Part shown: in pieces, positions 843-59,035 of the stretch
Numbering within the stretch: the first letter of the stretch is position 1
Layout: each line of letters starts with the position of its first letter
From: Simmondsia chinensis
Lineage: Eukaryota > Streptophyta > Magnoliopsida > Caryophyllales > Simmondsiaceae
Direction: 5' to 3'
NCBI GenBank assembly: GCA_018398585.1
Contig: JAGTTD010000011.1
Span: 18,653,346 to 18,717,345, forward strand
DNA: 64,000 nucleotides
The notes under the pieces: model-generated
The model's database searches: none
What the model was told of the DNA's origin: nothing
The model's input: the letters and a program-made list of their open reading frames with translations, nothing else
Translations under genes and position numbers: made by a program

Positions 843-904
843 GTTTGTGAAAACAATTTGGTCTCACTATTTGTGAAAAACGGTTTGAGAAAAAGGCTAC
901 TAAG

Positions 905-2230
905 TTTGAGATAGAGCATTTCGATAGGAAGAATGATTATACTTTGTTGAAGGTCAAGACCAAAGCATTGCTGATGTCCCAAGGCGTGGGATCTGCTCTC
1001 CTGGAAGCGGACAAGCAACCATCTCGTCTGACTGAGAAGGACAAGGAAGAAATCGAGCAAAGGGCCTATGGTACTCTTGTTATTTGTTTAGATAATAATG
1101 TGCTTCCTCTTGTTTCCTCTGAAACTACTGTTGCTATAATCTGGGCTAAACTAGAAGAAATATATAAGGTTGAATCCCTCTCTAATAGGATACTTTGTAT
1201 GGAAAATTTCTTCACGTTTAGAATGAACGAACATAAGCCATTAGATGACTCCCTAGATGAGTTTAATAAAATTTTACGGGACCTAAAAACTATGAATGCT
1301 GGTGTTCAGGATGAGATTCAGGGTATCATATTGTTGTGTGCTTTACCTTAATATCTTAGGGCATTTAAAGACACTCTCAGATATGGTAGGCAGAAAATCA
1401 CATTAGATGAAGTAACATTGGCCTTTAGGGGTAAAATTTTAGAACTAAAAAGGGAGGAGAAACATGGACTTTATAGCAACAGCGATGCGGGACTAATGAT
1501 GAGAGGAAGAACTAATAATAACAAGAGAAGATCAAGGAGTAGGTATCGCTCTAAGTCAAAGGGTAGGAGAGACATAACAAAAATGAAGTGCTACGCGTGT
1601 CACAAGTTAGGACATATGAAAAAGGACTGCCTCGATAGGAATAGAACACCCAGAACAGCAGATAACGTTGTTTCATTTGAATCTGGAAATGCTAAGGTGC
1701 CGAATGTCTCGCATGGTTTATTTGTTTCGAATGACATTTTTGATTTGTGTGATTCTAATGCAAATTGTGATCTACCTGAACATGCTATGTTTGAATGTAA
1801 TACTTCTGATCATGTTAATGTTTCATCTGATACATTAGAGCATGAGTGGGTGTTAGATTCGGGTTGTAGTTTTCATAAGACTACCACTAGAGCTAATTTT
1901 ATTAATTATAAACCAGTAATAAGGGGAAGGGTGTTGTTAAGAGATAATAGAGGCTACAACATAACTGGTGTGGGGTCCGTCAAAATAAAATTAACCAACA
2001 GAACGGCATACATCCTTGAAGATGTTAGACACCTTCCTGACCGACGTAGAAACCTGATATCTCTAGGTCAATTAGACTTGAAAGGTATGTCATTTAGGGC
2101 AATGAACTTGGAACTTAGGATTGTGAAAGGGTCGTTGGTGGTTCTGAAAGGGGAGCTCAAAAATGGTCTCTACGTGTTAAAGGGTAGGATTGTCTCAGGA
2201 GAGTCAAATGCCATGGTTAAGTTTGACTGA
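905..2230 (+). pseudogene. copia gag and protease remnant
   Basis: The reading frame begins without a visible ATG around 905 (FDRKNDYTLLKVK, a typical copia gag N-terminus) and runs to a stop at 1349-1351; a second open stretch covers 1418-2230. The latter has a CCHC knuckle, CYACHKLGHMKKDC, at about 1592-1633, preceded by an Arg/Ser/Lys-rich segment, and the protease motif LDSGCS near 1852. The frame changes between the two stretches show decay. Confidence 0.85.
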
Positions 2231-3300
2231 ACTGAGTTATGGCATAGGCGTTTAGGCCATGTGTCCGAGAAAGGATTGAGAGAATTGTCAAAACAGGGTT
2301 TGTTAAGAGAGGACAGTGTGTCCAAACTAGATTTCTGTGAGTATTATATATTTGGTAAACATCATAGGTTGGCGTTCAATGTATGAAGTCACACAACTCA
2401 TGGACCGTTAGATTACATACATTCGAATTTTTGGGGGCAAGTGAGGGTTGCTACCTTTGGTGGAGCTTTATATTTTATTGTAGGTGATTATTCACGCAAA
2501 GTCTAGTTGTTTGTTTTGAAAAATGAAGACGACTGTTTTCCCACATTTAATAGGTGGAAGAATCAGATAGAAAATATAACTGGATGAAAAATTAAATACC
2601 TCAGAACTGACAATGGACTGGAATACATAAATTCTAAATTTGATGAGTTGTGTGCTAAAAGTGGAATCAAATATCATAACACGGTTAGGAAAAATCCTTA
2701 ACAAAATGGGGTTGAGGAGCATATGAATCGAACTTTATTATACAGAGTCCGGTGTATGCTGTTCGCATCAGATCTAAGCAAGCAGTTTTGGGGAGAGGCT
2801 GTCATGACAGCCTCCTATCTTGTGAATAGGACACCCATGACTGGGATAGGCTTAAAGACACCTGAGAAAATGTGGACTGGAAAACCAGTCGACTACTCAA
2901 AATTGAGAGTCTTTGGCTACGCAGTCTATGCTCACCAGTTGGAGGGCAAGCTGGAACCCAAGACTGTAAAAGGCGTGTTCTTTGGTTACTCTGAAGGGGT
3001 AAAAGGGTATAGGATAGGAGTTAAAAATGGAAACCGAACTGGGAGTGTTATAATCAGAGATGTGACCTTTTATGTGTCTAACATGCCCTACATAAGCAAT
3101 AACAATAACTCAACTCCGAAGAACTGTGTGTTTGAACCAGAAATTTGTGAATTTGAGTTGAATCCACTAGAACCTAATTGCCAAAATATGACAAGACCAG
3201 AAATTAAAAACGAACCTGGAAACGAACTGGAGACCCAACTAAAATAACCAGAACTGGAATAATCTCAAGATGTAGGTTGTGGTGAAAGACGCACAAAAAC
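2231..3300 (+). pseudogene. copia integrase remnant
   Basis: A GAG-pre-integrase block (LWHRRLGHVSEKGL) starts near 2239. The integrase core follows with the TDNGLEY and NGVEEHMNRT motifs and then the copia-specific GLKTPEKMWTGKP and KLRVFGY region to 3247. Stops occur at 2228-2230, near 2383, 2503, 2584 and 2699, so no active enzyme can be made. Confidence 0.85.
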
Positions 3301-3304
3301 TGAA

Positions 3305-4510
3305 ATGGAATCTGAAATAATTCTTGAAAACGAGCTCAAAAACTATCAACTAACTAGGGATAGGGCAAGGAGAGAGATTAGACCTCCTGAAAGATTAGGT
3401 CACGCTGATTGCATAGCATACGCCCTAAACACAGCCCTAGAGTATATAGAATCAGAACCTTTGAGCTTCAAGCAGGCTATTAACAGCCTCCATTCAGTAG
3501 AATGGCTGGGATTGTTGTTGTTATTGTTGTATTCAGTAGAATGGCTGGGTGCCATGAAGGCTGAGATGGACTCCTTATTGAAGAATAGGACTTGGTCACT
3601 AGTGCCGAAGCTGGTGGGCAAGAAGCTAGTGGGATCTAAGTGAATCTTCAAGATTAAGGAACCGAGTTTACCTTCGGAAAGACCTATGTTTAAGGCTAGG
3701 CTTGTAGATAAAGGCTTCATGCAGCATGAAGGCGTGGACTATGACAAAATATTTTCATAGGTAGTTAAGCACACTACAATTTGGGTATTAATGGAATTGA
3801 CAGCTAGGTTTGACCTTCATTTGGAGCAATTAGATGTAACAACCGCTTTCTTCCATGGCGAGCTGGATGAGGAGATCTACATGGCTCAGCCCAAGGGTTT
3901 TGTGAAACCTGAAAAATGCTGGCCTAGTATGTAGACTCAAAAAGTCCTTGTACAGACTAAAGCAGTCCCCAAGGCAGTGTTACAAGCGGTTCCACCACTT
4001 CATGACTGAATTTGGGTTCACTAGGTCAATACATGATGTGTGCTTCTATGCAAAAAACTTGAATTCTGATTCTACTATATCCTTGCTGATTTATGTCGAT
4101 GACATGTTGATAGCTAGTCGTCATTTGCTTGAGATTGAGAACCTGAAAAAATTGTTAAACTATAACTTTGACATGAAAGACCTAGGTCTTGCTAAGAAGA
4201 TCTTAGGAATGGAGATAAGTAGGGATCGTAAATTGAAAACGATAAACTTATCTCAGTCTACTCACTTAGAAAAGGTCATTCATAGGTTTAACATGGACGA
4301 GGCTAAAATTGTAAGAGTTCCCATAGCCCAATATCACAAATTTTTAGTAGCACAATATCTAGGGAATGAACAGGAAGTGGCTGAAATGAGTAATGTACCT
4401 TATGATAACGCAATAGGTTCGATTATATGTGCCATGACTTACACTAGGCCTGATCTAGCTTGCATCATTAGTTTGCTCTCTAGATTCATGGTGAATCCGG
4501 GGTAAGAGCA
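3305..4510 (+). pseudogene. copia reverse transcriptase remnant
   Basis: The RT starts around AMKAEMDSLLKNRTW (3551) and continues through LDVTTAFFHGEL near 3832 to the catalytic YVDD of IYVDDMLIASR (about 4090-4107), which is intact. Stops at 3641 and 3758 and a frameshift near 3930 break the frame. A 39-bp in-frame insertion at 3511-3549 is described separately. Confidence 0.85.
3492..3549. repeat. TTG-rich micro-insertion with 19-bp direct repeats
   Basis: ATTCAGTAGAATGGCTGGG occurs at 3492-3510 and again at 3531-3549, flanking the 20-bp ATTGTTGTTGTTATTGTTGT. The net insertion of 39 bp keeps the copia reading frame. The arrangement matches a target-primed insertion consisting only of a (TTG)n tail, like the tails of the LINE/SINE copies elsewhere in this window; slippage is the alternative. 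Confidence 0.6.
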
Positions 4511-5541: not shown

Positions 5542-7179
5542 ATGTCTAGTGGTGTTACTACGCGATCAGGAGCTAGAGCAGGAAATCCAACTGCATTTGT
5601 TGATCCTAATGTCTCCTATGCTATAGCGGTTGGTCCAAGTGCTGTAAGAGAGGTATAGTTTGTTACGAATGATCAATTGTCACTGCAAATGGATCTAATG
5701 TTCAATCGGATTCAGCAGCAGAGGCAAGAGGATAAAGATCAAATGCTTCAACAGATGAGGCAGGTTCTAAGAGAAAACAATCAAAGGAATGAAGGCCTAG
5801 TGTCTCAACAACTGCAAGGTTTTGAGGAAAAGATAACTAATCGTGTTAATGATCAAGCTCAAGAGTTTGAGGAAAGGATCACATATAGGTTGAATCAACA
5901 TACACAAAGCATTGAAGAGAAGTTCAATGAGTTGCGCAACCAATTCGATAGGCAAAATATGTCATTTGCTCCTGAACCTCTAATTCCTACTAGTCTGTTA
6001 CACATAAATCAACAGAGGAGGCTTCCTGATGAGGTGAATCCTCAAATGCCAAATGTTTCTACTAGACCTCAAGGTCATGCTTAAGTGGATTCTGTTAGAT
6101 CTCAGGATCAGATTCAAGAAGCTAAGGTAACTGTTAGAGCACAAGATCATCCATCTGATCAAGTTCAGTCACAAGCTACAAGCTCAATCCTAGGATAGAA
6201 TGATCGACCTCCTGATCATCTAATTCACTTTAGATCTGCCGATTCTAATGCTGAACAACTTGATCGTCCACCTGATCAATGGCACCAGCAACATTCAAGA
6301 AGTAATGATGCTTCATCTAATAATAGAAGAAGTGGTTACAGGAAGCCAAGAATTCAGATAGATCCTTTCAATGGGAAGCAACCTCATTCATGGCTGAGAA
6401 GATGCAATCGTTATTTCCATTTCTACCACATTGATGATTCTGAGAAGGTGGAGATAGCATATGTGTATCTTCTGGGAGACCATGAGGTGTGGTTTTACAA
6501 TTTGTTGAAGAGAAATCCTACACTTTCTTAGGCTGAATTTGTAAAAGAGCTTTATGAGCGATATGGAGAGGAAGATTCCAGTGATATTGTCTATAGATTT
6601 AATGAAGTGATACGAGAAACATCAATGAAGGAGTATATGACAAGGTTTGAGAACTTTAGAGCTAGCATGATAACTGCATATCCTGAAGCTACTGAGTCGT
6701 ACTATATCTCAAGCTTCATAAGTGGCTTAAAGCCCAAAGTTAAGAAACTTGTTAAGGCTGCTGATCCTGCCACACTATCTAAGGCTTATGCTAAGGCCAA
6801 GCCATTTGAGGCAATAGTTCTTGCTTCAAATGAAGGATCAAGGTATCATGGAAGCAGTTCTAAGCAACAGAAAGAGGCTATCAAGTCCAAGGCCAGTCGA
6901 TCTAGTGAGAAGACGCCACAAAGGCTTTGTTTCAAGTGCAATCAACCTTATCAATTTGGCCATAAATGCAACCTAAAATTCCTTATGTCAGCTAGGGGAA
7001 GGAGTGTTGAGGAATTGTCTGATAGTGAAGAATCTAAAGTGGATAATGATAGTTCAGAACAAAAGTCACTGGAGGAACTTAGTGAAGATGAAGTTGGAAT
7101 TTCTATGAAAGCATTAACTGGCAATGGAACTCATAACACTATAAGGATCAAGGGAAAGCAAGAAAGAGATCAATCATAA
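5542..7179 (+). pseudogene. gypsy gag with in-frame stops
   Basis: The ATG at 5542 opens a frame that stays in register to 7179 but is cut by stops near 5656, 6082, 6196 and 6529. It contains a Gln/Glu-rich coiled-coil-like N-terminus (5670-5960), the retrotransposon gag block around 6400-6760, and the zinc knuckle CFKCNQPYQFGHKC near 6928, the form usual in plant gypsy elements. A one-base frameshift near 7150 separates it from the protease frame. Confidence 0.85.
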
Positions 7180-7181
7180 TT

Positions 7182-9022
7182 TTGATTGATAGTGGGAGCA
7201 CCCATAGTTTTGTTGATCCAAAAGTGGTGAAGAAGGTGGGATTTGAAGTAATCAAGACACATCCATTGGCAGTGGCAGTTGCAGATGGGAATTCAGTGTT
7301 AACCCAGAACAAATGCCAAGGATTCCAGTGGTTGATGCAAGACGACAAGTTTGATTATGTCTTCAGGATCTTGCCTTTGGTTGGATGTGACATGGTCCTT
7401 GGGGTAGATTGGATGAGATCTTACGGTCTAGATCTCTTCGACTTTGCTAAGTTGACAGTCTCATTTCAAATTCAAGGATCTAAAGTCACTTTGCAAGGCA
7501 TGGCAAATCAGGCTCAATTACAGACTATGAATGGCAAGAAATTGGAGAAAGGATTCAAGAAATGTGCTTACCATTGGGTAGGACAATTGTTTGCTATATT
7601 TCCAATTGAAGTGGTGAAGATTACTTAGCCTGGAGTTCAGGCAGTGTTAGAGGAATTTGAAGATTTGTTTGAATTACCCAAGGCCTTACCTCCTCAGAGG
7701 AGCTTGGATCATGCTATCCCTCTCAAGTCTGATGTAGAACTTGTGAAGTTAAGACCATATAAGTATCCTCATGCTCAAAAGACAAAAATTGAGAGGCAGG
7801 TGGACGAGTTACTCAAGACAAATTTCATATGGCAGAGTCACAGCCCTTTTGCTTCTCCTGTAATCCTTGTAAAGAAGAAAGATGGAACAACAAGGATGTG
7901 TATAGACTACAAACAGCTAAATTCAATGACAGTGAAGGATAAGTTTCCAATTCCTGTCATAGATGACTTGCTTGATGAATTACATGGAGCACAAGTCTTC
8001 TCCAAATTGGATTTGAGGCAAGGCTATCACCAAATCAGAGTGTTGGAGCAAGATGTGTATAAAACTGCATTCAGAACACATCATGGACACTTTGAATTTG
8101 TGGTCATGCCATTTGGGCTGACCAATGCTCCAGCTACCTTCCAGGCTCTTATGAAAGATGTTTTCAAGTAGCTCTTGAGGAAGTTTGTATTGGTATTCTT
8201 CAATGATATTCTAATTTACAGCAGCTCACTGGAAGAACATCTGAAGCATTTAAGGGAAGTGTTCTTGGTCATGCGCAAGCACAAGTTATATGCCAAATTG
8301 GCTAAGTGTTCCTTTGCTCAAATGCATTTAGAGTATTTGTGCCATGTTATATCTTATGAACGAGTCTCTACTGATCCTTCCAAGGTGCAAGCTAAGGTGG
8401 ATTGGCCTGTACCTGTGACTTTGAAGCAGTTGAAAGGATTTTCGGGCTTGACAGGTTATTATCGAAAGTTTGTTGCTAACTATGGAGCTATGGCCAAACC
8501 TCTAACTGAATTGTTGAAGAAGGATTCCTTGAAGTGGTCAGACAAAGCTCAAGAAGCATTCGAAGCCTTGAAGTCTGCAATGTGTAAGGCACTAATTCTA
8601 GCAATGCCAGACTTCACTTTGAGATTCATCCTGGAAACAGATGCTTGTGGAAGTCGAATTGGGGCTGTTCTGTCTCAAGAAGGGAAGCAAATAGCTTACC
8701 TCAGCCAAGCTTTGAGTCCTAAGCACCAAGATTTATCCACTTATGAAAAGGCGTACCTCGCAATTCTGCTTGCTGTTGATAAGTGGAGGCATTACTTGGA
8801 TGGGCATCATTTTACAATTAAGACAGATCATCAAAGTCTGAAACATCTTTTGGAGCAGAAAATTGTTACAAGCATCTAGAAGAAAGGATTAATGAAGATG
8901 TTGGGGCTTGATTATGACATTGAATACAAGAAAGGGAAAGATAATGCTGCAGCTGATGCATTATCTCGAAGATTGGAAGATTGTGAGTTAGCATTTTGTG
9001 GAGCAGTATCAATTGTACTCTA
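7182..9022 (+). pseudogene. gypsy protease, reverse transcriptase and RNase H
   Basis: The protease motif LIDSGSTHSF lies at the start. RT follows with [17 protein letters not shown] (about 7875), [13 protein letters not shown] (about 8001) and the catalytic box near 8196. There the sequence reads FFNDILIY, so the first aspartate of the usual FFDD is replaced by asparagine. RNase H follows with ETDACGSRIGAVLSQ and TDHQSLKHLL. In-frame stops lie at 7626, 8169 and 8877. Confidence 0.88.
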
Positions 9023-9094
9023 GCTTGGGTTGATGAGGTATATAAGTCCTATGAAGATGATCCTTTAGCACAATAATGCTTTACTGCTTTCAAT

Positions 9095-10413
9095 GTGAGC
9101 AAGACTGGCAGTGAAGCCACTGATGCAGAGATGTCTGTGGTGAAAGGAATTATTAGATTGAAGGGCAAGTTGTATATTGGCTCTTCCACTGATTTAAGAC
9201 AACAAATCATTAGTGCCTCACATGAGTCAGCATGGGGAGGACACGTTGGATTTGAAGGCACCTACCAAAGGCTTAAAGCTTATTTCTGTTGGACAGGCAT
9301 GAAGAAGGCCGTTGCTGATTTTGTTCAAACTTGTGAGGTTTGTCAGCAAACTAAGCTGGGAGATCATATATATCAAGGTCTTCTCCAAGTTTTACTGGTC
9401 CCTTAAGGAGCTTGGCAAAACTTTAGCATGGACTTTATTAAAGGGTTGCCCAAGTCAGAAAGAAAGGAGGTTATATGGGTTGTGGTGGATCAATTCACCA
9501 AATTCAGTCATTTCATTGGCTTGGATAGACCAGTAATAGCTGAGAAATTAGCTAAGAGCTTCTTGGACAACATCTATAAGTTACATGGGTTGCCTCAATC
9601 TATTGTATTAGATAGTGACAGGATCTTTACTAGCCATTTCTGGAAAGAATTGTTCAACTTGATGGGAACAACCTTAGCTCTTAGTTCATCATACCATCCC
9701 CACACCAATGGACAAACTGAAAGAGTCAACCAATGCATTGAGCAATACCTTAGGAGTATGGTGTTTAATCATCCCAAAGTGTGGAGTAAGTGGCTATCTT
9801 TGGCGGAGTATTGGTACAATGCTCATGCTCATGCTTCCATTGGAACTACTCCATTGAAAGCTCTCTATGGCTATGATCCCCCAACACCATTGATGTTGCA
9901 AGGCATTGTGTCAACGATACCTAAAGTGGCTGATTTACTTCAGTAGAGGAGGCAATTGATGCAAGTGTTGAAGGACAATCTCCATCAAGCACAAGCTAGA
10001 TTGAAGTTTTACGCAAATAAGAAGCGTGTGGATAGAAATTTTGAAGTTGGAGACATGGTCTATTTGAAGTTACACCCTTACAAACAATCAACCATGGCTA
10101 TGAGGAAAATGTGAAGTTATAGGCTAGGTTCTTTTGAACATACAAGATCTTAGAAAAGATTGGCAAAGTGGCTTACAAGCTTGACTTACCACTTAACTCT
10201 TACATTCACCCTTTTTTTCATGTGTCCTTCCTCAAGAAACAAGTGAAGAGAGGTTGTGAAAGCTCAATTCAACCTCCAGACACAGCCTTAAATGGAGCTA
10301 TTTTGCTGGAACCTATTGTTGTGCTTGATTCTCGCAAGTTGAAAGATGGTGAAAAAGTTAGACAAGAGGTTCTGGTGCAGTGGGCCAATCTAGATGACAA
10401 ATTTTCGACATAG
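9095..10413 (+). pseudogene. gypsy integrase and chromodomain-like C-terminus
   Basis: The HHCC zinc region ends in CEVCQQTK near 9342. The core carries MDFIKGLP, DSDRIFTSHFW and YHPHTNGQTERVN, which contain the D, D and E of the active site. The C-terminal part has FHVSFLKKQ (about 10220) and ends with VLVQWANL before the stop near 10411, matching the chromodomain-like tail of chromoviruses. Stops lie at 9404 and 9944 and a frameshift before 10168. Confidence 0.86.
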
Positions 10414-16148: not shown

Positions 16149-19100
16149 ATATTCCCCCACCATTTTCAAAATACAATCATTCTCACAGACATCATCTCCA
16201 AGTTAAATGGGGCCTTATTGTGCATCAATGAGGGTGTCTCTCGATTGAACCCCCAGCTAGTGAAGACACTGTTACAGATAATCGGATTGAAAATGGTAAA
16301 CCAAGCTTTGAACCATACAACCCATTTGACTAACTGACTATGTCATCACGCACAAGGTGTACTCCCCGTACACACCCTACAACTCCCAGATCGACACATA
16401 TGCAGCCTTGTGTCCTGTACCCTTCGTGAGTGTTTCAGAGCCAAACCCTTTGTCAAAAATCACTCCTTGAAGCCGCCAAACTTCACACTCACTAAGGTGG
16501 ACCCCACTGATCATGTCCCTGCGACTCGACATTTAGTAATAACATAAACACGGGTCCATTAAGAGCATACGCTCATCCTCTTAGATTCTCTATCGCAAGT
16601 AACCAAGTACCTTTTACACGGGATGGAGAAAATCTTTTGTGCTTGCAATCACACAGATGACAAGCCTCACTCATTGAACTCGAGACCTATCGTCATGCTA
16701 GACGTCGAGTTGAGGGCCTATCATGGGTGACTGAAATGACAAGTTTCACACCATCCCTTTAATTATCAAGTCTCGAGCAATGTTCTTAAACAAGAGATCC
16801 ACTAGTTTCAGACTTATATTTTCAAAGTCTACAGTGATCACTCAGTCTTTCATGAGTTATTTCACTTAATAATATTTGACACTGTTGTGTCCGGACTTTC
16901 AGTTATACATCTCACTCTTATACATTAAAACACATCTTACTATCACAATGGATAGAAATAGCACATATTTGCTTGCGCCACAAAGTGATCTTAAACATAA
17001 GACCCTTTAATCATTTTGTTTCTTTATAAGCAGAAACTAGAGCAACAAACTCTATTATCACAGTGGAATTTATAACATGTTTTAGTTTCTTGAAATTCAA
17101 GGAACAACACCCCCACCATCTATAACATTTACTAGCTTTTAGAAGCGTAGTCCTCCTTATGGGATATACAACTGGCATCCTTCTATTCTTCTATATAGAA
17201 GATTACTCATTAATATTAACACCATAACTCATGGTCATTCCAGTACCTTATGTACCACATGCCAGTCACCTTTATTTACATAGCTAGTTATACACACTCA
17301 GCTATCCAATAATAAAGGCTACATCTAACCTTTTCAAATTCCAATTATACCATTGGAACACTTTCATTTGGTTCTAAATTTTCACACCAAATTGCAACAT
17401 GTAATCAACACATACATACAATGAATCCTCTTACTTGTTAAACTTGCCATATGCACTCTTCAGATTCATTAACTACCTCTTTCAAAAGGCAACATCGCTA
17501 GACTACAGAGTCTCGTCATAGTATCACAATCTATGACAAAATAATAGTGAACTTTGACGTTCATATTATTTCTAGTTCATATATACAAGTCCGATCGCTA
17601 GGACTTCTCTTTTCATACTCTTTACTCTTTAAAAGTTGTAGAGTATTTTCAGGGATTTTCCCTCAATCACGATTTTCCTCATAATATATCTTACTTCACA
17701 TGATCACAATGCACTGTTCAATATCAATAACAGACTCAAAGTCACTTTTATGTACTCATTCACATTACATCTTAATATGTTCAATTCACCCATAATTCAA
17801 TCATACGAATTTACTTATCATTTATATGAATTATCATGCCACTTATAAGCATCTAACTTTTATGGGTACAATAAAAGAGTTATCAGAATTCAGTATTTAT
17901 ATACTCTTTAAATTTGTCACTTTAATGACTAACAACATTCTAACATGTGAATATAACATCACACAATAATCTAATTTACCATGCAACAATTACATATAAC
18001 TATCACTCAATTTGAGTATTTTAACATTCATCATATAAATGTTCTTCATTTTAAGCGATGAAAAGAATCATAATCATTGCACCAACTAACCATGGATTAC
18101 TTAACCGCCATATACACATGCCCCTTAAAATTGCATATGGACATTACTTCAACTGTAATAACAATGATAGGTGATAAAACTTTTTACACGCATGCTGGTT
18201 TCCATTGAAGCATTACATCCAATAACATTGGAAAACCCACTGTAGATACGCGGTCAATTATGAAATTATGACTCATCGTTTCCAAGTGCTTTTATACAAC
18301 TTCTTTCATCATCCTTAATCATGAACTTCAATTTGAATTTCTTTAATCAATCACATTAGGGATCAACACATTTAAAATAATCATATACTTCATGATCCAC
18401 TAAATCCATTCAAATTCACATCACTTCCATTTTATCAACTAAACAAATGGCATTCATTTTTATAAATAACCGAGCCGTAAAACTCATAACCACATTAAGG
18501 TTCATGGACATATTGACCTCATAACTACATCAACATATATGGTTACTCAAATCATTTTTTATGATGCATTAACTTTGATCTAATGAAATCATACATCCAT
18601 AATTGTATCAAAGCATTAATCGTACAACCATATTAACACCCATGCTTAGCATATAAACTAGCATGCATTATCAGTATAACTAGCATCATATTAACTACAT
18701 CAAAGCATTAATCGTACAACCATATGGACATGCATGTATTTGTTATATTAACTAGCATACATTATTAGTATAACTCCATTAACATATATAGATTGTTATG
18801 CTCAAATTCTTTTCATATTCATGATCATATAAACATTGCCTGTCATGATCCAATTTCTTTTACTCAAATTCAAGCTACTTTCGGATTCACCAAATAAACA
18901 TATAATATTCATGTTTACAAATTAAAACCGCAAAGTTTGTGATTGCATTGATCATGCGTACATACATTATCAACTTAGTTACTCATAGTACAAATTCATA
19001 CAACAATGAATTTATTATACACAATGCATAATCTATACTTTGTTCCAACCAACATAATTCTTTAAGAATTATTATCATGATATATAAAAGCATGGATTTT

Positions 19101-19288
19101 CATATTACCAATTTGTAATAAACATGAATCCACAAATTTTATTATTAGTTTTGGCATCGTCTCGGTGTCTTGTTTGAACAACCATGCTAAACAAGGATTT
19201 CCCTTTTAGCATCACCTCGACGTCTGGTTTTAACCACCCAAAGGAAAATTTTCATACTTAAAGACATATCAGGAATTACAGTAACTAA

Positions 19289-19563
19289 TACAACACATAT
19301 TTCAAAAGGAAAAGGAACATACCCAGTGCCTCAAGGGCTCCCGCCTACGCAGGGTCTGGGGGGGCCGGATGTACACAGCCTTCCCCCTTCAGGATGTTAA
19401 CCTGAAGAGAGGCTATTTTTCAGTGCCCCCAACCTGAGGGTGAGGACTTCCCAGGAGGTCACCAATCCTGGTACTACTCTCGCCCAAGCACGCTTAATTT
19501 TGGAGTTCTAATGGGATCCGGTGACGGTGTGTTGGTGCCCTCTTTGGTACAACACATATTTCA
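19289..19563 (-). mobile_element. SINE with a 5S rRNA-like head and Au/RTE-like tail
   Basis: A 243-bp insert (19305-19547) is flanked by a perfect 16-bp direct repeat, TACAACACATATTTCA (19289-19304 and 19548-19563). On the minus strand its first roughly 100 nt (19540-19442) closely resemble plant 5S rRNA, including box A (AATTAAGCGTGCTTGGG), the GAGAGTAGTAC block, and box C (GGTGACCTCCTGGGAA). A middle part with a TTCAGG-ATGTTAA-CCTGAA hairpin follows. The 3' end (19380-19321) matches the 3' end of the LINE at 43250-45009 and of Au SINEs (AAGGCTG, CAGACCCTGCG, GGGAGCCCTT, GCACTGGG), ending in a T-rich tail. The long TSD excludes a 5S gene and argues against a Cassandra LTR. Confidence 0.88.
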
Positions 19564-19737
19564 CAATGGAGTAAAATGTCCACATTATGTTACGAATCAA
19601 TTAATTGAAATTAATAATACATCATTAATTAAAAATACTTGCTCATAATATATGTAGCAAATTATCAAAAGAAAGGCAATTCACAACTAGAAACACGCAG
19701 TTTTCAGTTCAATAAATTCTTTTGTACGTATTAGACA

Positions 19738-19812
19738 CAAAAAGTCAAGTGCTTCAATGGTAAGTGCCCTTATCCTCTTGTTACATGACAGTGGTTCGAT
19801 TCTCCATAGCCC
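19738..19812 (+). other. tRNA-like segment with box A and box B
   Basis: TGCTTCAATGG (19750-19760) resembles box A and GGTTCGATTCT (19793-19803) matches box B of RNA polymerase III promoters with normal spacing. No proper acceptor stem closes, so it is not a functional tRNA gene; a decayed tRNA or tRNA-derived SINE head is more likely. Confidence 0.4.
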
Positions 19813-20453
19813 CAAAATTGTAATTTCTTTTCCTTTTCCTTGCTTTATCAATATATAATAAATATCTTGTTTGCGTTACAATAAACGCTCAATATGGAAC
19901 AATGGTGGGGAATTGCATCCCTTTTCTTCCTCAAGCACTGTGGTTCGAGATTGATAAACCGCAAGTTCCCCTTTGTTTTCGATTTTTACTTTTATTAAAT
20001 ACATGATATTAATCATAATTTGATTCAAGACACTTGATCTTAAACATGTGGTACAATGCATCATAATAATGCCTAATTATAATTCATGTATACTCATCAA
20101 CAAATTCACATCAATTCACACGAATTTCATATTTCATAATTTCATCTTGAATCAAGTATATATACTTTTATGCATAAACGACAATGCATCAACCACTACT
20201 CATTAGGCATTATAGAACTTCATGATTTTGGTATCTCTTGATCAAATTTTATATTAATATTAAAATTTCATGATTCTTCATACTCATATTGAATCAAAAT
20301 GACATACCTTGATCTATAGCAATTTGTATACAAGAAGAATCAAAGAAGACATACATTTCCCTCTTTGTCACTTTCTCCAGTCTCATATGGTTCGCCAACA
20401 AATCAAGGAAAGTGAAGAATCCATTTTCAAATAACGAAACTAAGTCTTAAGAT

Positions 20454-21097
20454 TGTTGGATAATTTTCCAATAAATCGGGAACCGGGTAACCAAAGATCT
20501 CAGATGTCGAGGCCATGTAATCACTTTCTTTAAGACTTATTTCAGCGTACGAAATAGTCTCGGAGATACAACGACAACCAAATAAAATGAAGTGAGAATG
20601 TGTAAAAGGAGGGATAGAAGAGACATCAATAAAAATGAAGTTTTCAAGTACTTTTCACAACACTATCTTATGAATACACACAAGTGTTTCTTGCAATGTT
20701 TTTCATCAATTTATCAACCCTTGAACATAAGGGTGAAAGGGGTTATTTATAGTTTTCAAGTGTCCCGTCCCTTCACTAACTGACACTTCTCCTTTTAATA
20801 TTTCACAATACTTGTAAGCAAACACCTTTCATGTGTATTTCTCCAAATGAATCACAGGGAATGTCTATGTAAAAGACGGCTTAAAAACGGCCCCAAACAT
20901 CACCCAAAGGATTGCCAAAAAGAACCGAATGTAAGATTTGTGTGTGGACACACGGACCCTCTGTGTCGACACACAGACACTTTAAGTTAGTTCTGTTGGG
21001 CTGTGTGTCAATACACGGTACCTGTGTGTCGACACACCTTATACAAGCTAATGCACTTCAAACACTTTATTAAATACTCTATTTTGAAAATACACCA
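20454..21097 (-). repeat. 5' LTR of the LARD-like element
   Basis: This 644-bp copy matches 15511-16148 throughout with scattered substitutions and small indels. It carries three to four copies of the TGTGT(C/G)GACACA palindrome (20939-21040), one of them disrupted. Confidence 0.85.
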
Positions 21098-23521: not shown

Positions 23522-26500
23522 CTGTGGTGTGCAACTTTAATACAAAAAAAGTAAAGAGTTAAGATCTTGCAACTTTAATACAAACCTAAAAGCTATTGGA
23601 CAGATAAGGCAAAACTTAAACGTCAAACAAAATTAAGTAAAAGACAATACCATCTGATAAAATTCAAAAAGTAAAGAGACAGATAAAAATCAATAACAAC
23701 AATAACAGTTCCAATGCCACAAGTGCTTCCGTCGAATTTCTCATCTCCTTCTCCTGTGCTCTAGCTACACCAATAGCCCGTTATTGCCACCATGAGGCCA
23801 GCACTAGCCTCCCTCTCCACCCTCGTGTTGCTGCCAATTTTTCCCCTTATGTCGTCGTTGGTCTTCCTCAAGCCCCAACCCTTTAATTGGTCTATTATGC
23901 CTTTTCCCCATTATCAAAGATCCTCCATTCTCATTTCTATATCTGAATTTAGCTTACAGATTTTGAAGCCAGAGGGTGAAAGACTCTCGGGTTAGACACC
24001 AGGAGTTTAGAGGAAGGGAGGCCAGCTATGATGGTAGTAAATGTCTTTCTTTTTCCTAATTTTAAAATTTTATTTAAAAAGTAAAATAATAATTTTATTC
24101 CTGGCTAATTTTTTGAAAATATATTTTTTGGTGCCACTTGAATATAGATTAACAAGGGCTGACAAAGTTACGGAAATGGTACCTAAAAGGTATCAGCATA
24201 CCTAAAAAATATATTACCAAATTTTAAAATACTTGAATTTAATTTTCTCAATATATTACTTAAGTATCAGATTATATATATTTAATTAAAAAAATTTATA
24301 AGGTGTACTTATAAGAGCTTGTTTCCAAAATAATTCTTTATAAAATTTTGAAAATAGGGTAGAAAACATTTTGGGAACTAGTGTCCACAAGGACACTAAG
24401 ATGCAAAATTGAATTTTTTTTTTATTTTTTTTAATTCAAGAATTTGAAGTTAGGCCACCAAAAAGTGGAAGAAGCATATATATGTCACTTGCCGTGGGCA
24501 CGACAAAGCAACACAATATTGTAGCAATGGAAGGCGACGTAACACTGAGCAAAACGCAACTTTACCAATATAAAAATATCCCCCTCGATCACAACAGGTG
24601 GCAATGTTATATTGGGGGGTATGTCACTTTCCTCTATGTAAAGCCTCTCGTCCCTTTAACTCCTATAAAATCCTAACCATTACGTCTGAAAGCGAAAACC
24701 TTTGCCACACCGGCCATACTGACACAATCGTCACGCTCTCGCGCCCCGCTACACCATTGTTTGGTCACTGTTAGCCGAAGCATGGCAATCATTAAGATTT
24801 CCTTTTTATTTTTTTTTAGCTTACTTTATTACAAGTTTTAAATTTTGGGTTATTTATGCAATAAGTTCATGTATTTTATCTATTATATCAAATTTTGTCA
24901 TCGAACTTTTAACTATGTCATTCAATCCTTATGTAATTAAAATTGTTGCAATCAAGTCCAATTCTTAAATTAATATTCATATATAATTTAAATTGTAACA
25001 TTATCAGTGACAAGGACCTCTTATTCAAGAGAAGAAAATGAGTTGGGAATGGTTATTCTATAACCAGGTTGATGGGGATGACTATGCTAAGATTAGAAAT
25101 ATGTCGGTAGTTAGGAGAGAGAATTGAGGGTACATCAAATGGAAGAGTCTGAATCTTGGAAGCACCAAACCCTGCATATGCGGGAGCCCTTGTGGCACTG
25201 GGACTGTTGTTGTTGTTGAATCTTGAGAGCATAAGGATAAATTTCATGGCCCGAAGGTGGGTAAATGGGCGGCAATAGGATATGTCACTAGGGATGAAGC
25301 TGGGAGATTCATTGTTAAGAAGTGCTATACACTTGGAAGTGCTTCAATTGTGGTTGTGAAGGAAGTGACAATTGGAGCTGGTAATCATAGGATAATTAGC
25401 TCGGGATTCAGTACATTCAAGTGGAAAGCAATAGTGCGATAGTGATTAATGTTCTCAATAGGAAGTGTCAGGCCCCATAGCAGATTTAGATGATTGTTCG
25501 GGAGATTTGAGGACCAAGGACACTAGAAGAAGCATTTCTTTAGCCATTATTATAGGAAAGCAACTTGGCATTTTATTGGGTTGCAAGATTCGGACATCAT
25601 ATATCTTAGTAGTTTAATGGTCCATGGTACCTAGCTTCGACCTAGACTCCATTGGTTTTACTGATGTTCTAGGCAAAGCCTTTTCTAAGAGGCATGCTTA
25701 GTATTTTCTCTCCTTACTATTATAAAAAGAGAAAGTACAATGCTATTGTAGAGGAAACTTCAATGTGGGTTTAAAAAACAAATATGCAAATCGACGGATA
25801 TTTGGACAACTTATCCATGTGGACGCCATTTTAGTAATTATTTTTGGACCCCCATTTTTGGAAACTTTTGGGAACTATTTCGAGAACTAGGGATAGCAAC
25901 GAGATGAGGGGGGTTACAAGGCATGCCTCCCCCATATCTATACTCGCCACCCAAATCCATACCTGCTGGTGTCCCATTACCCGTCATGGGTATGGAGTGG
26001 ATACTCGTACCTGCCCCCGGCAGGTATAAATCTACCCATACCCACTATACTACTTGTGGGTATCAAACAAATATACATTACCCGCCTCATACCCACTCCA
26101 ACTTATACGCCAAATTAAAATTATATTTTGTAATCTAACTATATTTTGCCACCTCTTTGATAGATAAATTGAGCATTTATAGCGTTTTGCATTCTCTAAT
26201 TAATTAAGTACTGTTTCGGGTAAAATTGGTCCAGGTTGCCTAATCGTCCCCAAGTAACAAATATTTGTAGATTCTGCATGAGAGCCGAGCTCAAGCCCTC
26301 ACCAAAAAGTAGCTGTTGGCGCGCTTAATCCAGGCTCTCCCTGGTTCGGCGAGGTAGCCGGAGAAAGGAGAGAGGAGAGAGAGAGGGTGAGGAACTTCTT
26401 AGGGGGTTGTTGTAAGTGAGAGTAAGGAAAGCCTGGTTGGGCTTGTGTTAAATGGAGGAAGGGGGTTGGTATTTATAGAGGAAGGGGTAGTGTTGAGTGA

Positions 26501-32500: not shown

Positions 32501-35500
32501 GGCTAGGGTGCACGAAAAGAGAGAAAAAATATGAGAGTTTGTGTAAATTTGTAAGGGAGTCCCGGGATACCCCGAGTAAAAGGAGAGTATGAATTTTGTT
32601 TGTGAGTGCTTTGCATATGAGTTTGAGCGTAGTTGATCCGGGCATGAAGGTAGTCATGCTTAGATAACTTGATCGAGGTTTCGCAACTTTTATGTCCAAA
32701 AGTTGCATGTGGGAGTGCTAGTTACTTTGTGTGTGCAAAAGGTACAATACGGAGGATTGTAGATTTGTCGGTGTAAAATTTACATTGAAGTTGAACGATT
32801 GTGAGCAGTTTTGTGTTTTTATTCAAGGTTGTAATTACAAAATTCTAGAGTGAATGATGCACATGTTTGGGTCCCAAGATTTTTCTATCTAGTGTGGAGA
32901 GCATTTCTACATAAATTTAGTGTTTTGTTTGGTTAGATGTTACCCTTCCATTACATGTTTTCGGATTTTTTCACAACATATTCAAATCATTTACATGCAA
33001 TTGGCAGGTGAAAAATCATTAATATAAAATATAATTATTTAAGGGTAGTATTATTGTCAAATCTATATGCTATTTGTTAATGTCAAAGCAAATGCTTTTC
33101 TTTTTACCGCATAATCTCTTGAGCATTAAAAAATTTAGCCTTCACAATAATAATACCCTAGTTTCATAGTAAAAGTTATTATTTTCTAATTTTATTTTTG
33201 GCAATGAGTACTCCATACTATGAAAATGACTTTTTATACAACAATAAAGATCCTTTACTGAGTATCTTGACCTACTACCTCTGTTAGGGTCACTCACGAA
33301 TTTCCACTCCTTATTTAATCAAAACAGCATTTGGGTGCTTGTTGTGAGATCCACTACTTTCTTTTAAGAAAAAAGGTGTAACAAGGACATGTAAGGATCT
33401 ATTTATATAAATATCCCTTACTTTTTACATTGGTAAGGAGAGTACAGTATATAACTTCTTAAAAAGGGAAATGGAAGATTGAAAGACAAGCCACTACACT
33501 AATCATCAATAAATCATTGTTTGATTTTATGTTTTGATGTGGTAACATTATCTATGAGACAATAGTTAAAAAGAGAAATAAAAGTACCTGAGAGGACACA
33601 TTGGAGTCCATCAAGGAAATTGGAAGCGGCAAGAATAGGCAACATGACGGCTACATATCTGACCACTTGGCTTTCATTACTATAAGCGTATCCCCATACG
33701 TTGCGTATCAATATCAGCCCCGTTCCCAGCACAACACCCTCTGTTATGGCTAGGCATAGCACCACCGATACTGCTTGCCGAGCCGCCTGTGGCCTCCCTG
33801 CCCCGAGTTCATTTGAAACCCTTGTACTGCACCCACAATGAGTGGTTCGTATTCAAAAGTGTTAGTTCAATTCGTCTTTTACCACTAGGTGGGTCTATTA
33901 TCTACTATATGGATTGAAGTTTATTACGGTGCTATATAATTTATTTTATCTTTTTTAAACACTAATACAACAAGGGAAAAGATTAAAAACAGGAACATAG
34001 TAAGAGGGAAATGTGCAAAGTTTACGTCAAGAAAGTAAAAGTGTTGCAAAAAACTTAAAAGTATCATATCAACTTTAGGAATTAGTTTATATACTTTTCT
34101 CATCATTAGAATAAGTTTATATACTAATGTGTCCCTCTCATGGTTCAAATTATTAATAATGTATATATATTAATTTTATACTTTGTGTTGACTTTATATT
34201 AATATAAAGAACTGACTAATGAAATTAGAACATTGAAACTTCTATTTAAGGATCGTTTATATAAAAGTACCTGTTAAAGTTATCAAGTTTTACTTAACCA
34301 CTATACCTTTAACATTTTTAAAAAATAACCTATTGGTTAAATCAACCATCTTCAGTCTAAATAATTAGCATTTCGTTGCAAACTTTCATGTTCCCAGCCC
34401 CAAAGTTATTAAACAATGAAAATTGTAACATTTGGGCTAAGACTAACTTATAGTTTAGTCGTTAGGATGAATAAGCGAGTTGATTTTTCACGGATCGAGC
34501 TTTAATACATATATCCTCACTTCTCAATTACTTTTGTGCATTTTCTAATGCAGCACATAAGAAGTGTACTGGAAACGGACAGCTCAACGGCCTTCCTTTA
34601 AACTCTTATTGGTAAAACAATTAAGAAGTAAAGGGAAAAGTCTAATATTGGTTCTCACAGCCCGAGCAAAAGAAAATTCTAATAGAACAAAGATAAATGC
34701 ATGTGTTAGGATTATGTCTCAAATTACTTGTTTTAAGTTTATGGGTTGCCGAGGGGTCACAGATCGATTGGGAGGGAAGCCTGATCGATCGGCACTGGGC
34801 CAATCGATCTGGTCCTCCCATACCCGCGCCTATATATGGAGCTAGGGTTTCGGTTATTTGTATCCAATTTCAGAGTGAGGCGCCGTCATTGAGAGAGAGA
34901 GGTGATTTCGCAATTCCTCCAATTCAGATATTCGAATGCTACGAGAGTTCAGAGAAAGTGATTGTAATTCTTTCATAGATCTCGTTCGGAGAAAGTGTCG
35001 TTGTAATTCTTCCATTCAAGTATCAATAAAGAATTTCCATCTCCGCCCGTGGTTTTCTCCCCTCTCGATTGTAGAGGGGTTTCCACGTAAATCATCGTGT
35101 TCTTCTTGTTCATTCTTTCTTTCTCCATATTTGTTTACTTCTCATTTGTGTGAGTCATATTATTTAAATCGAATCAAGTGATTAGGGTTTACGCTTCCGC
35201 ATCAAGATTTCCCTAATAAATTGGTATCAAAGTATATCAAGTTTGTTCCAGATTATTCTAACAAATTGGTATCAAAGCCCTATTTATTTCGATTTGATAC
35301 TATGACATCCGCAATTAGGTCTGAAGTTGAGAAGTTTGGTGGTCAAGGGAGCTTTAGTTTGTGGCAGGTTTGCATTAAGGGCCTCTTGACTCAAAGTGGC
35401 TTGAAGAAAGCTTTAGATGGGAAAGAGAAGAAACCAGAGAATTTGACAGAAGCACAATGGGAGAAGTTACACGAAAAGGCCCTCACTGCAATTCAGATGT

Positions 35501-38500
35501 GTCTTACCGATGACGTTTTGACAGAAGTTCTGGAAGTGAAGACCGCTAAAGAGTTGTGGGAGAAATTGCAAGATATGTTCTATTTCAAGTCCGTCTCCAA
35601 CAAACTTGTAGTTAAGCGCCGGTTATTCACGTTTTGTATGTCAGAAGATACATCACTTAAGAATCACGTCAATGAATTTAATTCAATTATTCAAGATTTA
35701 AAAGAATTGGATGATGTTCCTAAGTATGAAGATCAGGCAATGTTGTTATTATGTTCTCTCTCTGCTTCATATAAGGGTTTTGTTGAAAGCACGATTTATG
35801 GTGGTAGACAAACCATATCTGTTTATGAAGTTAAGAGAAACCTATTGAGTAAAGAATGAGTAGAGAGAGAATTATCTAATTCTGTTAATAACTCTGGTAG
35901 TGGCTTATTTGTGAGAGGGAGAACTGAGTATGATCATAGTGGAAGCAAGTCTAAGTCTAGGTATCAAGACCTAACCTGTAATTGCTGTCATAAGAAAGAG
36001 CACATTAAGAAAGACTGATACAAGCTTAATAGAAAACTTGAAGCAAATAACAGGTCTGACCAGAGATCCATAGTAGCTAGTGTTATGGATGATGAGATTG
36101 ACGGTAATCCACTGTCTGTGTCTAAACCTCAGTCCAGTTTGAGAGATAGTTGGATTTTGGATTCGGGTTGCTCCTATCATGTCTGTCCAAATCGGGATTG
36201 GTTTTCCACGTACGAGTTCGTTCGAGGTGCAGTTGCTTTGATGGGTAATAATACTCCATGCAAAGTTCTGGGTATAGGAACAATTCGTTTCAGGATGTAC
36301 GATGGCACTATCAAGGTTTTGAGCGATGTTCGCCAGGTTCCTGATTTGAAGAAGAATCTCATCTCTTTAGGTACTCTTGAGTCTAAAGGGTACAGATACA
36401 CAGCTGAAGGTGGAGTTTTGAAGGTCGTTAAGGGTGCTTTGACAGTTATGAAAGGCAGAAGGGTAGGTACTATGTATGAGCTTGTCGGTTCCACAGTTGT
36501 TAGATCTGTTGCAGCATCTTCATCATCATTGTTGTTGACAGAACCAGAGATCGCAAATTCAGGACGTTTGAGATTGGATCATTCAGGTGATAGGGGTCTG
36601 TCTGAGCACAGTGTGAGGGGCTCTTTGTGTGGTCAGTCAACATGATTGATAGTCTATGAACAAGGGCTTTATGGGAAGCAGAAAGTTTTCGCTTCAAACA
36701 ATTCCTGACGAGTAGAGATGTCACATTTGATGAGTCTTCGTTATTGTCTCCACAGAAGATGTCATCAGTTGATTGTGATTCAGGTCAGGTGAGTAAGTCA
36801 AAGGGAGTTCAGTTATAGTTGAGCAACACAGTTCAGCAGCAGGTGGGTGTTTTAGAAAATGTGTCAAGAGCCAATTCAGAGAAGAAGAATATTGGCATTG
36901 CTGATAACCTCTTAGATATGTTCCCTCAGTTGCTACCTAGCAGGAAGTTCACGCTTCGCTCGGACTCGGTTAGGTTTTGTGTTTTGTTGAGATAACCCCA
37001 TGTGTGGGTGTTTAGTGGAGAAGGTGGAGGAAATTCTTTTATGTATGTAATTTGAGCCAAGGTGGAGATTTGTTAGGATCATATCTCAAATTACTTATTT
37101 TAAGTTTATGGGTTGCCGAGGGGTCACTGATCGATCGGGAGGGAAGCCCGATCGATCGGGTGATTTAAGTGATTTTTTTGGATTTTAGGCCGTAAGAGGG
37201 CGATCGTATCGATCGGGTCCTCCCATACCCGCGCCTATATATATGGAGCTAGGGTTTCGGTTATTTGTATCCAATTTCAGAGTGAGGCGCCATCATTGTG
37301 AGAGAGAGGTGATTTCGTAATTCCTCCAATTCCGATATTCGAGTGCTACGAGAGTTCAGAGAAAGTGATAGTAATTCTTTCATAGATCTCGTTCAGAGAA
37401 AGTGTCGTTGTAATTCTTCCATTCAAGTATCAATAAAGAATCTCCATCTCCACCCGTGGTTTTCTCCCCTCTCGATTGTAGAGGGGTTTCCACATAAATC
37501 ATCGTGTTCTTGTTCATTCTTTCTTTCTCCATATTTGTTTACTTCTCGTTTGTGTGAGTCATATTATTTGAATTGAATCAAGTGATTCGGGTTTACGCTT
37601 CCGCATCAAGATTTCCCTAACAAATTGATATCAAAATATATCAAGTTTGCTCCAGATTATTCTAACAGCATGAAATTGAATTCTAATAACAACCTAGTCT
37701 TCGTCTTCTTTAGATACATGATCCAATTCATGTAGAATAAAAGACTAAAACTAAAAGAGATAAATACAAAGAAAAATAATAAAATCTACTAATGTAAACT
37801 AAACTTTCCTAATTGAAGTTAAATTCCATCCGGATCAAGCCTCTTCATGTGCATCTCCCATCCTGCCAAATTCCAACTCGCCAACGCCAAGCTGCCAAGA
37901 TCCGTTTGCCTTGTTACCCACAAAAAGCTAAGGCGTGGCTGCATCATTAATCCCCGGGTTGGAGAGAATTCACCCCAAAATTCTCCAATGGATCATCTGG
38001 GTAATTTTCCCGAGCTATGTCTTCGCACATTCATCCTCCATCTTGCCAAGCTTGCCCAGAAGTGGACTATTGACCTGACTTGCCAAGACACGAGTTGTAA
38101 CCCATCTTGTCAAGACATAGGCTGCATCATCCTCTTTGGCTTGGAAAGAATTCGTCCTCAAATTCGCCAATAATTCATCTGAATCATTCTTGCCAAGTCA
38201 CGGATTGCATCATTTTCGCCCAAATCCTGATTACTCGTTAACTTCCACAATGGCTTCCAGGAACAGCACAAAGCGTACATCCCTCTCCAAAACACAGTTG
38301 GCGGGCACGCTATGCTTGCAATCCTCATGTCACCCTTCTCTGGTTTCGAATTCAGCCTTCTACTCACCTTTTGGCGGAGTGTGATTCTGGTGGTATCCGT
38401 TCTTTAGCCCCAACTTGTAAGACACTACTGAATTCTACAATTGGCATAGAAAGTAATGCAGCGCATAAGTGGAATTTAGGCAAACAGGAAGGGTTCGATA

Positions 38501-50500: not shown

Positions 50501-52420
50501 GTAGAAGAGTTGATTGAACCCCGCCCACTTGGCATGCCGGTCTGAAAGCTTCTCATGACTGTTGATGTATTTCAAGGCGAAGTTATCCGTGTATAGCACG
50601 AACTCTCTATTAGCAAGATAAGACTTCTAATGCCTCAAAGCCTGAACCACCGCGTAGAACTCAACATCGTATATGGAATAGTTATGTTTGCTCTCATCAA
50701 GCTTCTCACTGAAGTAAGCAATGGGTCTCTTTACTTGGCTAAGCACAACGCCAATTCCCACCTTGGAAGCGTCCGTGTGTAGCTCAAACGTCTTTTGAAA
50801 GTCCGGTAATGCTAACACTGGCGCTGTAGTGAGTCTTTTCTTGATCTTCTCAAAGGCGGTAGCAGCCTCTGGTGTCCACATGAAAGAACCCTGCTTCATG
50901 CAATCTGCTATTGGCGCCATCACCTGAAGTGAGGCACAAACCTTCTGTAGAAAGACGCCAACCCATGGAAACTCCAAACTTCCCCAATCGTCCTCGGTTG
51001 AGGCCGATCACGGACAGCCGCTATCTTCCCCTCATCAGCTAAGATTCCATCCTTGGACACCATGAAGCCAAGGAATGTCACTTGATCTTTCACAAACTCG
51101 CACTTCTTCAAAGTGGCGAACAGATGTTGTTCCCTCAAGGTATTCAACACTTCCTTGAGGTGCTTTATGTGCTCAACTCAATCCTGGCTATAGATTAAAA
51201 TATCATCAAAGTAGACGACAACAAACCTCCCAATGAACAGCCGAAGGACTTCATTCATGAGCCCCATGAAGGTACTTGGAGCGTTGGACAATCCGAATGG
51301 CATGACCAACCACTCGTAAAGCCCTTCTCTTGTCCTGAAGGCGGTCTTCCACTCATCTCCAAGCGACATCCGAATCTGATGGTACCCACTCTTGAGATCC
51401 AGCTTCGTGAATACCGTAGAGTTCTGAAGTTGGTCAAGTAAGTCATCCAATCTCGGTATTGGGAATCGGTATCTTACCGTATCGCCCGACTGTCAACACA
51501 CATTCACCAACTCCCATCCTTTTTAGGCGTTAGCAGAGCAGGCACGGCACAGGGACTTAGACTCTCCCGGATAAAACCCTTGGCGAGCAGATCCTCTACC
51601 TGCCATCTTAGCTCTTCGTGCTCTGAAGGACTTATTCGATAGTGGGGCTTATTCGGTAATGAGGCTCCCGGCACTAGATCGATACGGTGTTGGATGTCTC
51701 TTAATGGCGGTAATGTCTCCAGTAGCTCTTCTAGGAATACGTCAATGTATTCTTTTAGTAAGGTAGCAACTTCACTCGGTACTCCCCCCTGACTAAGCTT
51801 GCACTCCTTCCCAATCAGCACAAACACGACCTTAGCATCACCAATCAACTTGGTGAACAAGGGCTCGTCCTTATATGTTTGAATGTTGGGCTTCTATAGC
51901 CCGTGGCGCCTCCTCCTTCTTGGGTAGCAAGACGGTCTTGGTCCCCTCGAAGTTAAAGGTATAAGAATTCTTCCTTCCAACATGAACGGCACTCCTATCA
52001 AACTTCCATGGGCGCCCCAATAGCAAATGACAAGCGTCCATGGTGACGACGTCACACCACACCCCATCTCTGTACCTTGCCCCAATTGAAAAATTAACTA
52101 AGCAACGTTTGGAAACGGTCACCTGATTTCCCTTTTTGAGCCAAGACAACTTGTAGGGGCTAGGATGAGCTTCCGTCTTCAACCCCAGCTTGGCAACGGC
52201 TTCTTCAGATATGACATTCTCACGGCTACCTAAGTCAATGACCATGCGGCACACCCTTGTTACGATTCAAGATCAATCTTGAATCATAACATAAGATTGA
52301 AGTAGAAATTGAGATGAGAAGTAGAAGAATGGGATGAGAAATAGAGAGAATTAGGGTTGAGAGATAGAAGAACAAGATATTATCATTCGTCGATAATCCT
52401 TTACAACAATGAACCCCCGC

Positions 52421-52453
<33 letters not shown>

Positions 52454-58869: not shown

Positions 58870-59035
58870 ATTTTAATGGAGTTTTTGCTCCCTTTTTTTT
58901 TTTTTTTCCTCTCAAGTAAAGGCAGTACAGAGTAAGGAGAACGAAAAGGGGAGGGACAACATTTTGTGAGGCAGACTTTCATTTGTCAGAATCCTTCCAT
59001 GGTTTTTTTGATAAATGTTAATCGGCCGTCAATTA

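Follow-up and report, generated by a model that had tools for sequence, protein, structure and literature searches.

The 5S-headed SINEs closest to the element reported here are the SINE3 elements, such as zebrafish SINE3, AmnSINE1 and HaSE3, in which a 5S rRNA-derived Pol III head is joined to a LINE-derived tail, and Ped-1, whose tail comes from BovB, a member of the RTE clade. Published excerpts place SINE3 in vertebrates and some insects, with the moth element HaSE3 apparently mobilised by the RTE clade (PMC7245038), and a 5S-headed SINE is also described from a fungus (PMC5063351). Similar extracts indicate that SINE3 was born several times (PMC10886601), and that Ped-1 of the springhare joins a 5S head to the BovB tail (PMC3747384).

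The literature on plants, as far as its excerpts go, derives SINEs from tRNAs and includes a 37-bp 3' Angio-domain in the AngioSINE superfamily (PMC9033089). In tobacco, the TS SINE has an RTE LINE as its partner, and TTG repeats close both elements (PMC3747384). Plant capture of 5S sequence is treated for Cassandra, with SINEs cited for animals, in sections of one paper, and the 5S promoter sequence carried by Cassandra in plants exceeds 100 nt in some species (PMC10853983). Part of another paper says that SINE3 occurs in plants, but the source it cites is a Cassandra paper (PMC3095306). The TRIMs Helenus and Ajax are described with a 5-bp target-site duplication (PMC10886601). The tool AnnoSINE, made for plants, allows a 5S class but, by its excerpted description, discards candidates nearly identical to 5S (PMC8825457). 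No plant SINE with a 5S head is named in the titles and abstract openings among the matches listed in our literature search, outside which lay Repbase, SINEBase and Seibt 2020; a 5S-headed SINE is likely to be new in plants.

Within a 64-kb stretch of the genome of a flowering plant, most probably a eudicot (the window), positions 19305-19548 hold one copy of such a multi-copy SINE. Its parts are as follows, with box A, the intermediate element and box C taken at the limits usual for 5S genes.

19305..19548, minus strand: the 5S-headed SINE, a type A copy, 244 bp with its leading A, supported by Rfam and by near full-length match to other genome copies
19441..19523, minus strand: the core of the head, derived from positions 26-108 of 5S rRNA, with box A, intermediate element and box C
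19524..19548, minus strand: diverged 5' end of the head, located where 5S rRNA has the 5' arm of its helix I, and where the consensus matches host 5S at 9/25 positions
19305..19437, minus strand: body and tail common to the 3' ends of RTE-type LINEs of the host genome, with the terminus GTATGTTCCTTTTCC...
19310..19313, minus strand: first TTTT of the element, a possible Pol III stop and the sole run of at least four T in 243 nt
19289..19304, no strand: target-site duplication on the element's 3' side, a perfect 16-bp repeat
19548..19563, no strand: target-site duplication on the element's 5' side, a perfect 16-bp repeat, of which base 19548 may belong to the element

A single Rfam match at gathering score occurs within the window: RF00001 at 19431-19548 on the minus strand, with model positions 1-120 covered and 54.4 bits, well over the gathering score, which is 38. 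The initial annotation had recognised a 5S-like head on this strand with box A and box C preserved, and the match to all 120 model positions and the presence of both quoted boxes agree with it. Closeness to 5S, which it had put at about 100 nt, varies along the head, from 78/83 in the core to 9/25 in the first 25 nt, as judged from the family consensus against host 5S. The 16-bp repeat that it described is perfect, and its 243-bp insert probably has to be extended by one base. Of the 23 copies whose duplication reaches 12 bp, 16 have an A between it and CC, and in another six the duplication itself ends in A ahead of CC, so that the element probably starts with the A at 19548, which makes 15 or 16 bp the real length of its duplication. 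The window copy differs from the type A consensus at 10/227 sites, eight of them C-to-T or G-to-A.

Four genes from contigs C8 and C29 (L068-L071) served as the reference for host 5S rRNA, with L068 as the main one. Among the best 47 of 51,838 candidate matches, which were those scored, 46 lie in two tandem arrays on contig C8 and one on C29. In the alignment to genomic 5S that the initial annotation had called for, the type A consensus is identical to L068 at 78/83 sites over 5S positions 26-108 and shows 4, 5 and 4 differences from the three further genes, while its first 25 nt match L068 at only 9/25. In a second form of the element, type B, the head is identical to L068 at 92/96 sites over 5S positions 18-113. 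Both Rfam and the comparison with host 5S thus identify the head as 5S rRNA-derived; it comes from a Pol III-transcribed RNA gene, as SINE heads do, and from the particular gene that marks SINE3.

All four host genes carry CTCTTGGG, and their C-box is unusual, reading AAGATGGGTG in three of the four genes compared and ACGATGGGTG in the one at C8:4702312. Extracts from work on Cassandra give AGGATGGGTG as the canonical C-box and G81 as its canonical state (PMC10853983), and this box is kept in the consensus sequences of both types A and B. Both types have C79, G81 and C95 in place of the T, A and T of L068, so that they are most likely of one origin, and we infer that this was a 5S not yet changed. 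Both arms of 5S helix I have been lost in type A, and the replacement arms can pair: the diverged 5' end of the consensus can pair with the stretch after the core at -11.3 kcal/mol, with 41/5000 shuffles as good. In three type B copies the new arms pair at -3.4 to -4.0 kcal/mol, compared with -15.1 for host 5S; since pairing is fair in type A and weak in type B, no covariation is claimed for helix I.

A search of the host genome (831,394,711 bases, or 831 Mb, in 35 contigs) with the 243-base insert returned 4494 first-look candidates. The best 40 of these, including the window copy, are 93-100% identical and align from query base 1 (38 copies) or base 2 (two copies) to base 234-243. The 39 other scored copies were fetched with about 200 bp of flank. 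One of them, at C11:12806070, has the window's own flanks and was dropped from later counts, which leaves 38 and the window copy, 39 in all; because 3243 bp there are 100% identical to the window in inverted orientation, this locus is taken for a segment duplicated either in the genome or in its assembly, rather than for a second insertion. These 39 type A copies lie 1.8-5.3% from their consensus, a range drawn from the best-scoring copies, which favours young and full-length ones.

Head and tail occur together far more often than chance would allow. An exact pattern, in which 21 nt from the 5S part and 11 nt from the tail are separated by a gap of 80-110, has 447 + 451 = 898 matches in the genome, compared with 0 for a reversed control pattern; only copies in which none of the 32 letters has changed are counted in this way. 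Other copies keeping both parts, for which the initial annotation had proposed a search, are therefore present both among the best 40, which are nearly full length, and as these 898 exact matches. An unselected sample of 20 stretches of 10 kb (200 kb), at fixed positions on contigs C1, C2, C4 and C5, contains six head-plus-tail copies in 4/20 stretches (L050, L052 twice, L062 and L067 twice); all six reach the Rfam 5S gathering score, and nothing else in the 200 kb does. Extrapolation gives about 25,000 copies per genome with a Poisson 95% range of about 9,000-54,000, and the true range is wider because copies cluster. The copy number is probably in the thousands, with at least 898 intact-patterned copies. 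Like other SINEs, the element is short (about 240-250 bp), non-coding, dispersed and present in many copies. In a protein-database search with the antisense translation, 15/15 candidates match, and HMMER places the significant matches on the 5S head, not on the tail; the significant match of P0004 likewise falls on the 5S head by HMMER, despite 95% BLASTP coverage. The protein search thus lends no support to the family. Exact scans of non-plant collections found 0 matches each in viral contigs (head plus tail; a 5S 24-mer) and in genome contigs (head plus tail).

The family has at least two forms, type A, to which the window copy belongs, and type B. The latter was first seen beside another copy (L007:417-660); it starts with (A)GGGTTCATTTACC, keeps more of the 5S 3' part (GTGTTGC) and has a (TTG)n tail. 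Its genome search returned 8537 first-look candidates, of which the best 40 were scored and 20 copies were fetched. These 20 are 2.9-6.6% from their consensus, and three other type B copies are 85.4-85.8% alike in pairwise comparison, divergences which suggest that type B may be older than type A. A third, in-between form is represented by one copy, at L062.

The 5S head could in principle be a passenger, carried along in copies that arise when Pol II reads through from genes nearby. This is a distinctly improbable account of the family. Copies begin at base 1 (38) or base 2 (two), as a promoter-defined transcript would, although the choice of best-scoring hits favours such starts, and the contrast between the core (78/83) and the 25 nt before it (9/25) is what would be expected if promoter boxes had been kept. 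A head that acts as a promoter is in keeping with the distribution of T runs. In 38/39 type A copies TTTT is absent from positions 1-223, and in 30/39 it occurs within the 28 nt that follow, in tail or flank, so that transcription from a 5S-type promoter would yield RNA of full length with its end close to the tail.

Target-site duplications point to independent insertions. Perfect duplications of at least 12 bp, ranging from 12 to 22 bp, abut the single unit in 23/39 type A copies, while in a control with swapped flanks 3/1560 pairs reach 12 bp, two of which resemble the duplicated locus at C11:12806070. For type B, perfect duplications reach at least 12 bp in 9/20 copies and at least 10 bp in 11/20, against 0/380 in the swapped control. 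Independent copies of both types thus have the duplications of variable length that are typical of SINEs. Copies without a perfect duplication of at least 12 bp (16/39 in type A, 11/20 in type B) may be explained by age or rearrangement.

These data bear on the view that the window holds a single chimeric retrocopy, produced when an RTE reverse transcriptase switched once from LINE RNA to 5S rRNA. Such 5S/LINE-1 chimeras, many of them with duplications, are documented in mammals, where the 5S pieces are, in the excerpted description, typically truncated and antisense (PMC13174262); here the 5S part is sense and nearly complete. Near full-length copies, independent duplications and the same joined parts at hundreds of sites (898 exact matches) refute a one-off chimera as an account of the family, and it is very unlikely that the window copy is the direct product of one. 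As an account of how the family began, a single chimeric event remains a good one.

The tail links this SINE family to LINEs of the same genome. Three more stretches of the window match it (44316-44415, 25165-25208 and 58319-58278; E 2e-12 to 1e-8), two of them ending in TTG repeats. In the 200-kb sample, the consensus from position 111-114 to 233 is 80.5-85.5% identical to three tails that lie behind RTE-type ORFs. The tail at L063:3543 follows a 124-aa ORF by 153 nt and a 560-aa ORF by 696 nt, and the 560-aa ORF has an RVT_1 match (E=5.7e-33). The tails at L061:9446 and L058:3986 follow, by 267 and 391 nt, ORFs that by eye resemble these; the ORF piece at L061 has no Pfam match of its own. 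We take the tail-bearing LINEs to belong to the RTE clade from characteristic sequence features, along with the pairing of the TS SINE with an RTE LINE in the literature. A further 19 stretches of the sample match the tail only, 13 starting at consensus 104-116, where the shared part starts, and six further in, at 126-205, a pattern that fits truncated LINE copies. ARAGORN, in its bacterial setting, found 0 tRNA genes as heads of tail-only stretches in the window and 11 sample loci, which is weak evidence.

A 3' end in common with a LINE of the same genome, as is expected of a SINE, is therefore found in three sample stretches behind RTE-type ORFs, one of them with RVT_1. The initial annotation had likened the tail to both Au SINEs and RTE LINEs; the tails behind RTE-type ORFs of the host genome bear out the RTE part, and a resemblance to Au, like one to the Angio-domain, is presumed. 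The Angio-domain of plant Au/TS-type SINEs is reportedly the subject of work by Seibt in 2020. Type A copies end in TTCC units, variable between copies, and type B tails and the observed LINE ends consist of TTG repeats; the exact helper LINE for type A was not found among the LINE ends seen, which finish in TTG repeats where type A has TTCC.

Cassandra is the other plant retroelement that has to be considered here, and, like the element in the window, Cassandra TRIM retrotransposons have captured 5S promoter sequence. In Cassandra, the 5S sequence lies within the two LTRs that bracket a short internal region, and the target-site duplication is 5 bp; here one unit with a LINE tail lies between longer duplications. 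In the duplication scan of the 39 copies, as distinct from a dedicated search for LTR pairs, the 5-bp duplications with LTR ends that the initial annotation had named as grounds against its reading were not seen. The same scan showed no sign of 5S sequence inside two LTRs, the duplications abutting a single 5S-plus-tail unit in 23/39 copies. In the 200-kb sample, which yielded no Cassandra to compare with the head, the sole six 5S matches at gathering score are SINE copies. That the element is a Cassandra LTR element or its remnant is scarcely credible even with the more than 100 nt of 5S sequence carried by Cassandra in some species (PMC10853983, in part), since duplications of 12-22 bp, not 5 bp, enclose the unit of about 240-250 bp itself, the unit ends in an RTE-type LINE 3' end, and type B keeps 5S positions 18-113 nearly intact; the duplications around a single unit, along with the LINE tail, refute Cassandra as its present nature.

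We are thus highly confident that the window copy belongs to a dispersed plant SINE family with a 5S-type Pol III head and an RTE-derived tail, inserted by target-primed reverse transcription. This is the reading of the initial annotation, a SINE with a 5S head and an RTE-like tail, and the tests that it had named for refuting it were run without refuting it. The sequences show a family of two-part copies, many with duplications at their flanks, and tails that match RTE-type LINEs of the same genome; that Pol III transcribes them, which LINE helps them and that a fusion gave rise to them are inferences. The head would provide Pol III with an internal promoter of the 5S type, TFIIIA recognising its box A, intermediate element and box C. 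Transcripts would continue into the RTE-derived tail and terminate at a T run of tail or flank. The reverse transcriptase of an RTE LINE would recognise the tail and use target-primed reverse transcription to insert the RNA, with the duplications of 12-22 bp as the result. Remaining steps of insertion would be those established for SINEs and target-primed reverse transcription in general. The family may have originated when 5S rRNA was fused with RTE RNA, before the host 5S genes changed their C-box.

In comparison with known systems, the element shares its RTE-like 3' end with plant Au/TS-type SINEs, but the TS head is tRNA-related and the head here is 5S. Unlike the animal SINE3 elements, it has a flowering plant as host, a head close to the host's own 5S and a tail from a plant RTE-type LINE. 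Because the head is near the host's own 5S and SINE3 has been born repeatedly, the element probably works like SINE3 but is of independent birth. Ped-1 has a 5S head too, but is mammalian and presumably also an independent birth.

The significance of the family lies in its promoter. In it, a plant SINE would have acquired a Pol III promoter of a second kind, as animal SINEs have done, and the AGGATGGGTG box of the SINE set against the AAGATGGGTG and ACGATGGGTG C-boxes of the host offers a natural experiment on the 5S promoter. Furthermore, 5S-like sequence scattered through a plant genome is not necessarily Cassandra or rDNA. More speculatively, 5S-headed, RTE-driven SINEs could be an overlooked class in plants, missed because surveys seek tRNA boxes or discard candidates nearly identical to 5S, and their RNA may mimic 5S rRNA, bind TFIIIA or uL18 and in this way reach ribosomes translating RTE proteins, as has been proposed for Alu; we regard this wider proposal as rather unlikely.

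The surroundings of the element are themselves repetitive. The 3243 bp at 17805-21047 have a 100% identical inverted copy on their own contig, at C11:12.8 Mb and at a distance of about 5.9 Mb, which is either a recent segmental duplication or an assembly duplicate. The element lies beside or inside a larger repeat at 17079-19256, in which locus L006 matches 17079-18467 at 80% and 18841-19256 at 77%; the L006 repeat has its own SINE copy, at a different point. Stop-to-stop ORFs at 851-4505, 6532-9946 and 35182-36645 resemble, by eye, broken Copia and Gypsy retrotransposons. Elsewhere in the genome, two loci on contig C8 (L092 and L093, at 9.79 and 10.22 Mb) are decayed nuclear copies of plastid matK, one of which is at most 75% identical to 15 listed partial matK proteins, several of them from cacti. 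Further along the window, 46916-58872 on the minus strand contains two exons, separated by about 11 kb, of a gene for a DETOXIFICATION 16-like MATE transporter, with ORFs between them that resemble retroelement pieces by eye. Among the best 120 of 2128 hits, these exons match eudicot proteins best, at 72% over the whole query in Cornus and at 74-78% over 81-89% of the query in Lonicera, Cornus, Actinidia, Daucus and others.
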